Shown here piece after piece: positions 60,338 through 64,000 of a stretch of DNA of 64,000 nt. Below the pieces are notes generated by a model. That model did not search any database. It saw only the letters and a program-made list of their open reading frames with translations, and was not told the DNA's origin. Origin of the DNA: Bacteroidales bacterium (lineage in GTDB: Bacteria > Bacteroidota > Bacteroidia > Bacteroidales > P3); assembly GCA_017962665.1 (NCBI GenBank), contig JAGCUU010000032.1:32455-96454 (forward strand), in the 5' to 3' direction. Made by a program: the position numbers and the translations under genes. Every line of letters starts with the position of its first letter. The first letter of the stretch is position 1.

Positions 60338-61618
60338 ATGATAGACAAACGGACACTGGAATTCATTCTCTCCGACCAACAGGAGGAACTCGAAGCAAAG
60401 ACGCAGGAAACACTGTGCCACAGGCGCGAAGAAGCGCTCGTCGATTTGAAAAGCACTCAGGCGCAGGTGGTGATAGGCGTGAGGCGCAGCGGCAAGTCGA
60501 CACTCTGCTACCAGGCGGTGCAGAGCAATGGCGGCAAGTTTGCCTACGTCGACTTCGACGACGAGCGGCTGGCCGACATCGAGGCAAAACAGTTGAACGA
60601 TGTGCTGGAGGTGCTCTATAAGATTTATGGCGACTTCCAATACCTCTTCCTTGACGAAATACAGAACGTCAACGGCTGGCACCTCTTCGTGAACCGTATG
60701 CTTCGGAAGAAGATGCACGTGATTATCACTGGCTCCAACGCCAAGTTGCTCAGCGGTGAGCTGGCCACACACCTCTCGGGGCGCAACAAGGAAATTCCAC
60801 TCTATCCTTTTTCATTCAATGAGTTCTGTATTATGAAACAGGTGGATACCGTGCGTCGTACCACCAAGGCTGAAGCTTTCCGCAGGGCGGCCTTTGATGA
60901 CTATCTGAAACAAGGTGGCTTCCCCGAGTTGCTGACCATCGAGGACAACAAAGGCTATGTAGGCACCCTCGTGGACAACATCCTGAAACGCGACATCGAG
61001 CAGCGCTATAAGATATCCTACAAGGCAGCCTTCGAGCAGCTTTCGCATCACCTGCTGAATGTGGCACCCACCGTGGTTGTCGTCAAAGACCTTGCGAAAC
61101 TCTTCAACATCAAGTCCGAGAACACCGTCAAGAACTATGTGAAATACCTGAAGGAGGCCTACCTGCTGACAGGTATCCAGAAGTATTCGCAGAAGAGCCG
61201 TCGGCGGGTGGTGCAGGAGAAGTACTACGCCGTCGATGTGGCGATGATGGACCAACGCGAGAACGCTTTTGCGGGCGAGAACCTGGGGCACAGGCTGGAA
61301 ACCATTGTGGCCATCCATTTGAAGCGGAAATGCAAGATGGAGGACCTTGATGTGTATTACCTCAACGACCGTTCAGGCGAGTGCGACTTCGTTGCCTGCA
61401 AGGGGAACCAGGTCGTTCAGGCCATCCAGGTGTCCTACGACATCTCGGCCGAGAAGACCCGCAAGCGGGAGATCAACGGACTCCTGTTGGCCGCTCGTCA
61501 AACGGGATGCAACAACCTGCTGTTGCTCACCGACCACGAGAGCGAAGAGATTGACATGAACGGCCACCATATCAAGGTGCAGCCCGTTTACGAGTGGAGC
61601 CTCGAACTGGGAGTATGA
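60338..61618 (+). CDS. AAA-type ATPase with DUF4143
   Basis: A 426-residue ATP-binding protein. Walker A is VVIGVRRSGKST; Walker B is YLFLDEIQNV; an arginine-finger-like region follows in TGSNAKLLSGELATHLSGR. The C-terminal DUF4143 part includes NLGHRLETIVAIHLKRKC and DLDVYYLNDRSGECDFV, whose Glu-Asp residues resemble a degraded PD-(D/E)xK nuclease fold. Such genes are numerous and mobile in Bacteroidota; their function is undefined, with defence or mobile-element roles suspected. Codon use is clearly more GC-rich than in the surrounding DNA, a sign of transfer. Confidence 0.87.
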   Translation: MIDKRTLEFILSDQQEELEAKTQETLCHRREEALVDLKSTQAQVVIGVRRSGKSTLCYQAVQSNGGKFAYVDFDDERLADIEAKQLNDVLEVLYKIYGDFQYLFLDEIQNVNGWHLFVNRMLRKKMHVIITGSNAKLLSGELATHLSGRNKEIPLYPFSFNEFCIMKQVDTVRRTTKAEAFRRAAFDDYLKQGGFPELLTIEDNKGYVGTLVDNILKRDIEQRYKISYKAAFEQLSHHLLNVAPTVVVVKDLAKLFNIKSENTVKNYVKYLKEAYLLTGIQKYSQKSRRRVVQEKYYAVDVAMMDQRENAFAGENLGHRLETIVAIHLKRKCKMEDLDVYYLNDRSGECDFVACKGNQVVQAIQVSYDISAEKTRKREINGLLLAARQTGCNNLLLLTDHESEEIDMNGHHIKVQPVYEWSLELGV

Positions 61619-62102: not shown

Positions 62103-62306
62103 ATGCAGATACACATAGGCAACCTTATCCGTGACGAATTGCGCCGTCAAGGCCACACCAACCAATGGCTCGCCGACCAATTAGACATTGATCGTCGCAC
62201 CCTCCAGCGTCTGTACAACAAACCCTCTATCGACACACAGCAGCTGTTTCGCATCAGCAAAATACTTGGAGTAGACCTGTTTAAACACTATTCCGAACAG
62301 CTTTAA
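62103..62306 (+). CDS. small XRE-type helix-turn-helix protein
   Basis: A 67-residue protein, almost entirely one HTH domain: LADQLDIDRRTLQRLYNKPS has the Q-ladder pattern of XRE family regulators, with scanning helix residues DRRTLQRLY. It has no sensor or dimer extension. It lies between the hairpin RNA candidate and the RiPP operon and is the only regulator in the block, so it may control one or both. TGGCAA/TTGCCA arms at 62312-62326 just past its stop could be a terminator stem or operator. Confidence 0.75.
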   Translation: MQIHIGNLIRDELRRQGHTNQWLADQLDIDRRTLQRLYNKPSIDTQQLFRISKILGVDLFKHYSEQL

Positions 62307-62425: not shown

Positions 62426-62512
62426 ATGTGTTGAAGACACATACTTTCAATAACCCCACACGTAGTGTGGTGAATTAAGAATCAGAAAGATAAATGCGTC
62501 TCGAAGAGACGC
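62426..62512 (+). promoter_or_regulatory. three successive perfect hairpins in the RiPP leader
   Basis: ATGTGT/ACACAT (62426-62442), CCACAC/GTGTGG (62456-62470) and GCGTCTC/GAGACGC (62496-62512), each with a 3-5 base loop. They fill the leader between promoter and first precursor. The third covers an upstream in-frame ATG at 62494, supporting ATG 62566 as the true start. Confidence 0.75.
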
Positions 62513-62565
62513 TACAAAAAAGTATCGTATCACCTTATTTTTTAATCATCACTAAATTGATCACA

Positions 62566-62703
62566 ATGGTAGAAACAAGCACTAAAGAAATCCACGAATT
62601 CGAAATTAATGCTCACAAGTTAATCAGAGAAAGAATAAAAGAAAAGGCTTCAGTAATAACAGATTACTTCTATGATGATGACTTTTACAGTGAGCGCTGG
62701 TAA
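62566..62703 (+). CDS. putative RiPP precursor peptide 1
   Basis: A 45-residue peptide. A charged, helical leader-like part (HEFEINAHKLIRERIKEK) is followed by an aromatic/acidic core that ends YFYDDDFYSERW. It shares with the second small gene (63242-63370) a central I(R/K)ERI motif and a C-terminal YDD(D/E)xY(S/G)ERW. No signal peptide or Gly-Gly cleavage site is seen. Tyr, Phe and Trp in the tail are natural targets of a radical SAM enzyme. ATG 62566 is chosen over 62494 because the shared part begins there and the upstream frame crosses a hairpin. Confidence 0.75.
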   Translation: MVETSTKEIHEFEINAHKLIRERIKEKASVITDYFYDDDFYSERW

Positions 62704-62739
62704 AAACCATTTTTATATGATAATAAAAAATTAAAAATC

Positions 62740-63231
62740 ATGGACATATTAGTAATAATACAGATTGTACTCTTGCCTATAATCATCTCAATTATTTCAA
62801 ATTATGGTATTTGGGCATTCCCATATAAAAAATGGAAACCTAATATCTCCATAGGGGACGTATACACTAAAATTAAGAAGGTAGATAAAACAATAATCAA
62901 GGAGGATAAAACAACTGGCGAGGAGAAAGAGTTGAGAATTGAAGAAAAAGAAGTGAGGATAAAATTTGAAATGGTCAACACTACGAAAAGAAATGCATAC
63001 AGAATAGATGTGTATTTTGAGTTTATGGACAAGAGTGATGTGGTACAATATGTAAGAGCAGAACAACGACCATTTCTCGAAGGTGGAAAAAATTTGTTAA
63101 TAGATTCGCCATTTAAATATGACGGGATAAAAGTTGACAACATAGAGAAAGTCAATATCAATGTTGCATACCAAAACAAGTTTGGAGCAATATTCAGCAC
63201 ATGTAAGCAGAAAAAGCTAGATATAAAATAA
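62740..63231 (+). CDS. one-TM protein of unknown function within the RiPP operon
   Basis: A 163-residue protein not recognised as any family. An N-terminal TM helix (IIQIVLLPIIISIISNYGIWAF) is followed by a charged, beta-rich part (VDKTIIKEDKTTGEEKELR, FEMVNTTKRNAYRIDVYFEF) that could be an immunoglobulin-like domain on either side of the membrane. It lies between the two precursor genes with gaps of 36 and 10 nt, so it is part of the operon. Immunity, secretion or processing roles are all possible; none is shown. DNA is strikingly AT-rich. Confidence 0.7.
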   Translation: MDILVIIQIVLLPIIISIISNYGIWAFPYKKWKPNISIGDVYTKIKKVDKTIIKEDKTTGEEKELRIEEKEVRIKFEMVNTTKRNAYRIDVYFEFMDKSDVVQYVRAEQRPFLEGGKNLLIDSPFKYDGIKVDNIEKVNINVAYQNKFGAIFSTCKQKKLDIK

Positions 63232-63241
63232 ATACAGAAAA

Positions 63242-63370
63242 ATGAATACTGATAGTATGACTTTTGCCCAAAATTGCATTAAAGAGCGTATTGATTGTAA
63301 GATGGACACTTGCGAATCGCAATATTCTGATACCAAATACGATGATGAACAGTATGGAGAAAGATGGTAG
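63242..63370 (+). CDS. putative RiPP precursor peptide 2
   Basis: A 42-residue peptide: ATG at 63242, stop at 63368. The middle has CIKERIDCK and the end YDDEQYGERW, matching precursor 1 in order and spacing from the tail. Unlike precursor 1 it has three Cys (residues 12, 19, 24), all outside the tail. It begins 10 nt after the TM gene and ends 21 nt before the radical SAM gene. It is too short for usual gene-calling cutoffs. Confidence 0.75.
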   Translation: MNTDSMTFAQNCIKERIDCKMDTCESQYSDTKYDDEQYGERW

Positions 63371-63391
63371 TCCCACTTTCCGTGTGTGACG

Positions 63392-64000
63392 ATGACAATA
63401 ATTCTTAAACCGACACGAGCCTGTAACTTCCGCTGCAAATACTGTTATTTAAGCAACGGAACGAAGTCGCATACGGATATGTTTGACATAGACTTTGCCA
63501 AACGTATTGTATCGCAGATCAAGGAGGCTTTCGCATCAACACGCAAGGTATCTATCATCTGGCACGGTGGCGAACCTCTGTTGTGGGGCAAGGAGAACTA
63601 TCGTGAGATATTGGCCTTTATGCAACAGGTGTTGGAGGGATACGACGTACATCAGTCGATGCAGACCAACCTGTCGCTGATTGACGAGGAATACTTGGAT
63701 ATACTGACGCAGTACAATGTCAAGCCCGGCTTCTCTTTGGACGGCACACGCGAAATCCACGACAGCCAGCGTGTAGGTATCGGTGGACAACCTACGTTTG
63801 ACACCATTATGCAAAATCTCGCCCTGTGTCGGAATCGGGATTTGAAGATTGGTTGCATTGTGGTGGGCAGTCGCAAGCACATTGGGCGTATCCCCGAACT
63901 CTACCATTTTATGAAGGAACAGGAGCTGAACTTCAAGTTCAATCCTCTTTTCATCTCCGGAGAAGCCGAACAGAACCGTGACGAGTACGGCATCACGACA
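63392..64000 (+). CDS. radical SAM peptide maturase (SPASM-type), partial
   Basis: The first 203 codons of an open frame that continues past the window. The [4Fe-4S] SAM-binding motif is RACNFRCKYCYL (CxxxCxxC, residues 11-18). Further core features are WHGGEPLLWG (the GGEP motif), MQTNLSLID and GFSLDGTREIHD, all typical of the anSME/SPASM enzymes that modify peptides or sulfatases. The C-terminal SPASM cysteines lie outside the window. With two precursor genes directly upstream it is most likely their maturase rather than a sulfatase activator (no sulfatase gene is near). GC content rises again relative to the precursor genes. Confidence 0.85.
   Translation, partial: MTIILKPTRACNFRCKYCYLSNGTKSHTDMFDIDFAKRIVSQIKEAFASTRKVSIIWHGGEPLLWGKENYREILAFMQQVLEGYDVHQSMQTNLSLIDEEYLDILTQYNVKPGFSLDGTREIHDSQRVGIGGQPTFDTIMQNLALCRNRDLKIGCIVVGSRKHIGRIPELYHFMKEQELNFKFNPLFISGEAEQNRDEYGITT

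Follow-up and report, generated by a model that had tools for sequence, protein, structure and literature searches.

A conserved radical SAM–precursor cassette of Bacteroidales, read as a candidate triceptide-like RiPP family with a membrane-anchored partner

Introduction

Triceptides, YxdB, HaaB and dynobactin are treated in PMC11002830, where YxdB is described as joining Tyr C3 to Asp C-beta; PMC9055067 and PMC9062424 belong to the accompanying literature. In a RiPP-mining study of the Bacteroidales (PMC10352776), areas with a radical SAM enzyme only are the commonest, at 858 of 1,340. The published triceptide landscape may already contain part of the family described here.

The triceptide, or 3-CyFE, radical SAM enzymes (YxdB, XncB, OscB, MscB, HaaB and YhhB) share with the present locus the arrangement of a SPASM-type radical SAM gene adjoining a small precursor with aromatic-x-X3 motifs. 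By contrast, relatives of the present enzyme fall under the NCBIfam cut-offs for GrrM/OscB, XyeB, FxsB, YhhB and AmcB (YxdB was likened by description only), and the family has its own leader, a one-TM partner, no ABC exporter in the loci screened and up to 11 candidate triads in a single core (Asp, Glu or Asn at +2, with His counted among the aromatics). The dynobactin and darobactin maturases (DynA and DarE of NCBIfam) are also close, DynA being the best full-length profile match of the relatives, but these remain under the respective cut-offs of 450 and 650 and their precursors are of a Tyr/Asp triad type, from which the dynobactin core presumably differs. Anaerobic sulfatase-maturating enzymes (anSME; 4k36-4k39) align with the relatives over their full length and share the CX3CX2C and SPASM cysteines; the relatives differ in having Gly for Asp after a SPASM Cys, a precursor nearby and no sulfatase motif. 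A viperin reading was rejected: the similarity to the PADLOC pVip model (E 9e-14 for the relative L094) covers residues 10-181 only, and the gene context is that of a peptide.

The locus, from a gut bacterium and with related operons in other gut Bacteroidales, is best read as belonging to a new RiPP family that resembles the triceptides, has a partner anchored in the membrane and often adjoins genes for envelope proteins. To our knowledge, few radical SAM peptides of gut or rumen Bacteroidales have been characterised. The family offers a testable substrate rule, aromatic-x-Asp with many sites per peptide, as well as a new membrane partner and, in the relatives, small intact cassettes suited to expression.

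Results and Discussion

Organisation of the locus

The window is the whole 64,000-nucleotide stretch that was analysed (G000:C14:32455-96454). Its contig terminates exactly at the window end (position 64000), and the radical SAM gene is therefore visible only as its N-terminal 205 amino acids, with the SPASM domain out of view. The initial annotation had described two short ORFs flanking a one-TM protein, with a radical SAM gene following closely, and this arrangement was confirmed (Table 1). On sequence grounds the radical SAM gene most likely starts at ATG 63392, 21 nt past the stop of ORF B, because the start in the relatives suggests it. The reading frame of ORF A is open from 62494.

Table 1 Features of the operon and its upstream neighbour in the window.
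Feature	Position	Strand	Evidence
Small XRE-type HTH protein	62103..62306	+	Pfam HTH_3, 23.2 bits (cut-off 23)
Precursor A, 45 aa; leader ...INAHKLIRERIKEK, core ...YFYDDDFYSERW	62566..62703	+	ORF and leave-window-out profile
One-TM protein, 163 aa	62740..63231	+	Aligns with 25 relatives at 13-24% identity
Precursor B, 42 aa; leader TFAQNCIKERIDCK, core YSD..YDDEQYGERW	63242..63370	+	ORF and leave-window-out profile
Radical SAM maturase, cut to its N-terminal part by the contig end; cluster motif CNFRCKYC	63392..64000	+	Pfam Radical_SAM, 64 bits

The XRE-type HTH protein is a possible regulator of the operon and its membership of the operon is uncertain. Homologues are found upstream of the precursor and within 2 kb of the radical SAM gene in 7 of 35 loci (window included), and the protein is single-copy in the window genome at E ≤ 0.01.

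Another contig of the same genome, C17 (L061:1-905), opens with a 117-residue C-terminal fragment of a radical SAM enzyme that shares 79% of its residues with L094 and 75% with L074; for the N-terminal half in the window the corresponding identities are 62% and 75%. To judge from these sequences, the fragment may be the missing part of the window enzyme or belong to another copy. A lipoprotein gene follows it, with homologues in five other genomes of the genus; this synteny is compatible with either the same gene or a second copy, the window half and C17 having been compared and not joined.

Precursor peptides and their pairing with the enzyme

ORFs A and B share I(R/K)ERI and the C-terminal pattern YDD(D/E)xY(S/G)ERW (YDDDFYSERW in A and YDDEQYGERW in B). 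That the resemblance exceeds chance is borne out by a profile built from the precursors of other genomes only. Of the 421 small ORFs in the window, it gave the best score to B (E 2.1e-9) and the second best to A (E 0.001); the third reached only E 0.97. With a profile of the leader alone B stands out (E 2.8e-7) and A (0.034) is barely above the third ORF (0.071). When A and B were included in the profile, the whole window genome gave no other match at E ≤ 1. Neither ORF matched a Pfam or NCBIfam model at E ≤ 1.

A homologous precursor adjoins the radical SAM gene in all 33 close loci with upstream sequence, giving 39 precursors in total; the 34th close locus, L093, starts at a contig edge. This count excludes five ORFs rejected by eye, in L066 (-1022), L068 (-3609), L077 (-555), L083 (-613, the HTH) and L085 (-2487). 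The usual order is precursor, one-TM gene, radical SAM gene. A precursor on each side of the TM gene, as in the window, also occurs in L067, L074, L075 and L136, and two tandem precursors precede the TM gene in L069 and L079. In a separate search of 386 genomes of the order (precursor profile, E ≤ 1e-5), all five matches, in four genomes, adjoin a radical SAM gene; the profile included rows from G000, G289 and G496, and the match in G214 is independent of it. The radical SAM–precursor cassette is real and conserved. A short precursor with a leader and a variable core is thus found beside a modifying enzyme, which supports the RiPP-type operon of the initial annotation.

The homologous precursors carry a recurring leader, approximately T-x-A-Q-x-x-I-x-x-(R/A)-(I/A)-x-x-K. 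In the core, 15 of the 39 share the string YNDCHGDYYD without change, Muribaculaceae, Prevotella and Alistipes being among their sources, and variants such as NYSDYSDYSDYVDYGD are also present. The strings YNDCHGDYYD, NDCHGDYY, CHGDYYDAE and YSDYSDYSDY were absent from the literature searched. The ERW tail, which had been put forward as a family signature, did not hold: none of the 39 precursors of relatives ends in ERW, although a terminal Trp recurs in L067a and L136a. The pairing with the enzyme is therefore what other genomes conserve, and not the tail, of which the best reading is a terminal aromatic-x-acid triad (Y-S-E or Y-G-E) followed by RW. A scan of viral contigs with a degenerate DNA pattern for YD[DE]xxYx-E-[RS]-W gave one locus, L046 (tail YYEESW), with no radical SAM gene among the ORFs listed for this 3.7-kb contig region, and ERW was rejected as a signature.

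Relatives and phylogeny of the radical SAM enzyme

When 190 genomes from the same family were searched, G000 being one of them, a single further genome, G208, had a close radical SAM enzyme (63%). Searches of 393 genomes of the order and 395 of the phylum gave six genomes with a radical SAM enzyme at E ≤ 1e-50 and two at 1e-60, respectively, G000 being included in both. A pattern-based scan of GTDB species genomes supplied the loci compared here, the best 80 of 88 relatives, of which 34 are close (at least 47% identity) and 46 far. Titles or lineages place all 34 close loci in the Bacteroidales or Bacteroidia, and for many of them the titles point to herbivore guts. The far set of 50 consists of the 46, three viral-contig loci and one genome locus.

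In a tree of 83 rows the window enzyme is the sister of L074 (support 100/98), and a single clade of 33 rows (100/99) unites the window and the copy of G358 with the 31 intact close rows. The G358 enzyme is 39% identical and its genome lies outside the precursor matches, with a weak small-ORF hit (E 0.001) just before the gene; G048 (32% identity) had no precursor match. The enzymes of L078, L081 and L083, which have 30, 7 and 1 stops in frame, were left out of the tree and of the residue counts; the open downstream part of L078 (as L057) is one row of A2. The cassettes with these broken frames are otherwise similar to the rest, and the stops reflect either real decay or errors of MAG assembly.

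The initial assignment of the enzyme to the SPASM type is borne out in the full-length relatives, the window showing the N-terminal half only. Nine Cys are conserved in the C-terminal part of the relatives, and the SPASM model TIGR04085 is over its cut-off in L058. Among the best 25 models for each of five full-length relatives, no named maturase was over its cut-off, and the general SPASM domain model alone passed. The nearest was DynA (256-301 bits), and YhhB (130-151 against 445) and GrrM (105-129 against 310) were lower; the same five were below the cut-offs of all the named 3-CyFE subfamilies, and in their scores and the type of their cores they depart from DynA and a dynobactin-type precursor. 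In the libraries searched, neither the peptides nor the enzyme could be assigned to a named family by sequence comparison.

An anaerobic sulfatase maturase with unrelated small ORFs nearby would account for the best solved-structure match of L094, which is the anSME 4k37 (E 2e-36), and for the scores of 200-233 bits with TIGR03942 in the five relatives, although the cut-off of 349 is not reached. The column after the SPASM Cys is one that we take to hold the catalytic Asp of anSME, D277 of 4k36-4k39, the aligned Asp itself having been computed. This column is Gly in all 31 intact close enzymes, and a sulfatase maturase is therefore very improbable. The constant precursor pairing also argues against it, as does the failure of a sulfatase pattern to match in any of 35 loci, although it matched in 4 of the 50 far ones; three sulfatase-family genes were found in the window genome, on other contigs. 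In the 42 far enzymes without a triad peptide the column is Asp in 29 and Gly in 9, and among those with one it is Gly or Asn in 6 of 8, a set that includes L138, whose ORF has just four triads. The PCGRFC sequence in place of the PCD of anSME thus goes with peptide-linked enzymes, though not exclusively.

Aromatic-x-acid triads in the cores

In 27 non-redundant cores of the 41, Tyr, Phe or Trp has Asp at +2 in 100 cases, where shuffling within the cores leads one to expect 36.9 (z 12.7; none of 1000 shuffles as high). Spacing +2 is by far the strongest, with +3 depleted (20 against 35.8); there are lesser peaks at -1, +5 and -4, because period-3 repeats produce them. When His is counted as well, 235 of the 372 core aromatics in all 41 cores have Asp, Glu or Asn at +2 (unshuffled count). 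The aromatic-x-X3 triads expected of a triceptide precursor are thus found over the 27 cores; the window cores alone give 4 against 1.95 for Asp (p 0.08) and 6 against 2.8 for Asp or Glu (p 0.016). L083 and L111 have only 2 and 4 triads, respectively, among 7 aromatics. Metal binding or repeat expansion could also explain the enrichment.

The triceptide analogy drawn in the initial annotation is strengthened by this enrichment and by the conserved pairing, and by analogy the chemistry is most likely of the poly-cyclophane triceptide type. We propose, with a probability of roughly 0.6, that the locus is a RiPP operon of a family unnamed in the libraries, whose radical SAM/SPASM enzyme makes a triceptide-type poly-cyclophane at aromatic-x-Asp/Glu and has the one-TM protein as its partner. 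The enzyme would recognise the leader (approximately T-x-A-Q..I..RI..K) of both small precursors and work along the Tyr/Asp-rich tail, where, in several triads, it would link a carbon of the aromatic ring with the C-beta of the Asp or Glu at +2. Precursor A offers F-Y-D, Y-D-D and Y-S-E as candidates, and precursor B offers Y-S-D, Y-D-D and Y-G-E. The product would be a chain of strained three-residue cyclophanes, like that of YxdB. If so, poly-cyclophane peptides are more widespread than the named families indicate.

Counted against the cyclophane reading are the 3-CyFE scores below cut-off, the weak excess in the window alone, the few triads of L083 and L111, a TM gene that is missing or partial in L083, L111 and L082, the 43 of 50 far loci without a triad-rich ORF, the Gly at the anSME Asp position in peptide-less far loci, G048 and G358, and the lack of an ABC exporter. 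The same operon might instead carry out other chemistry on the Tyr/Asp core, such as an ether or C-N link (as in the daropeptides and dynobactin), another ring size, oxidation or decarboxylation of Asp or Tyr, or epimerisation. The position of DynA as nearest named model points this way, as does DynE, which according to PMC11002830 gives a C-C link of Trp to Asn (i+3) and a C-N link of Tyr C-beta to His. Against this stands the spacing in the cores, with +2 dominant and +3 depleted, and such chemistry appears rather unlikely.

The far loci were screened for plus-strand small ORFs with at least six triads within 2.5 kb of the radical SAM gene. Seven of the 50 have one (L096, L098, L103, L115, L118, L129 and L146; enzyme identity 24-33%), from Micrarchaeota, Woesearchaeota, Selenomonadaceae, Clostridiales, Muribaculaceae, another Bacteroidales MAG and a viral contig. 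On the minus strand, as a control, one of the 50 has a triad-rich ORF (L135), which is of low complexity; in the close set, the same screen gave 23 of 34 loci on the plus strand and none on the minus strand. The ORF of L115 lies 1.4 kb off and its enzyme is elsewhere in the tree, and that of L098 is 1.3 kb downstream.

The ORF in the Micrarchaeota MAG (L103:4786-5031) encodes 81 amino acids with 12 aromatic-x-acid triads within the last 45 residues, in a run of Y-x-D repeats; it lies about 80 nt ahead of a radical SAM gene and had no NCBIfam match. ORFs with His/Tyr-x-Asp repeats also adjoin related radical SAM genes in MAGs of Selenomonadaceae (L129:6658-6942), Clostridiales (L118:8170-8334) and Woesearchaeota (L096:8167-8526).

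The one-TM protein

The one-TM gene is present in 31 of the 34 loci with upstream data, window included; it is missing from L083 and L111, reduced to the C-terminal domain in L082 and to a 72-residue short form in L086. The window protein has a hydrophobic stretch at residues 1-19 with Lys/Arg following it. Lys/Arg residues are more numerous after the helix in 29 of the 31 proteins, and the domain is therefore predicted to be cytoplasmic. A model of the L089 homologue (pLDDT 93.7, pTM 0.83) has a helix at residues 3-31, then a mostly beta domain. The window protein is thus predicted to consist of an N-terminal helix and a cytoplasmic domain that, from the modelled relative, would be mostly beta. 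It would serve as a dedicated partner that holds the enzyme, the product or both at the inner membrane.

No Pfam or NCBIfam family was over its cut-off for the window protein, no Pfam family was common to more than one of 26 members, and a PDB sequence search with the profile gave nothing below E 0.067. A single weak PADLOC match of the window protein is to a CARF/PDDEXK model (E 0.003).

Neighbouring genes and the fate of the peptides

The gene directly before the precursor encodes a protein with a signal peptide or lipobox, as judged by eye, in 27 of the 33 loci with upstream data (L087 and L093 lack these); in every case the gap to the precursor is no more than 200 nt, or the two overlap slightly. 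No such gene precedes the precursor in the window, L076, L081, L083, L094 or L111. One type encodes a lipoprotein that matches CarboxypepD_reg, FN3 and Lcl_C, preceded in L056, which was examined with Pfam, by two further exported proteins. Another is a pair of CsgG-like proteins, the second gene of which ends between 58 nt before and 10 nt inside the precursor; one of the proteins scores 21.3 bits with Pfam CsgG (cut-off 20.8) and the other 16.5. CsgG-like exported proteins are encoded directly before the precursor or after the radical SAM gene in nine loci (L077/L080 and L084-L091).

An ABC exporter, suggested in the initial annotation as something to look for further along, did not appear: 35 loci have no ABC exporter signature (the same pattern matched 3 of 50 far loci), which leaves secretion unexplained. 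This screen and that for sulfatases used patterns that we take to be diagnostic, mostly over ±7 kb, with a shorter flank on one side in 12 loci and the right flank missing in the window.

The peptides could instead stay in the cell, where they would belong to a complex of the membrane or envelope as its ligand, its inhibitor or one of its structural components, modified by the radical SAM enzyme for stability or metal binding. Their partners would be the one-TM protein and, in other loci, envelope proteins of the CsgG-like and Lcl_C types. This would be compatible with cyclophane chemistry, and the lack of an exporter signature, the tethered domain predicted to be cytoplasmic, the upstream signal-peptide or lipobox genes and the YNDCHGDYYD string common to 15 of the 39 precursors favour it. 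On the other side, the window and five other loci are without such an upstream gene. Envelope genes are, moreover, common in Bacteroidales. We regard retention in the cell as possible, and hold it tentatively. If the envelope link is true, radical SAM peptides have a role besides that of a secreted antibiotic.

A more far-reaching version, which we consider doubtful, is an unnamed RiPP class with several Tyr/Trp/His/Phe-x-Asp/Glu cyclophanes (about seven in the commonest core), its pairing reaching Bacillota, Micrarchaeota and Woesearchaeota. The product would be handed to the membrane-anchored cytoplasmic partner, rather than exported as an antibiotic, and would work together with CsgG-like and Lcl_C-type proteins in the cell envelope of Bacteroidales, where it would have a structural or signalling role.

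Carriage on a mobile element was considered and rejected: plasmids gave no match at E ≤ 1e-30, and the matches in a phage collection (22-26%) and in viral contigs (24-34%) are distant. Upstream of the operon, at 60338-61618 of the window, lies a gene for an AAA_14/DUF4143 ATPase; in PADLOC it matches PDC-S01, a candidate defence protein, best of all (E 5e-97). ATPases of the same neighbour cluster flank the cassette in five further close loci.
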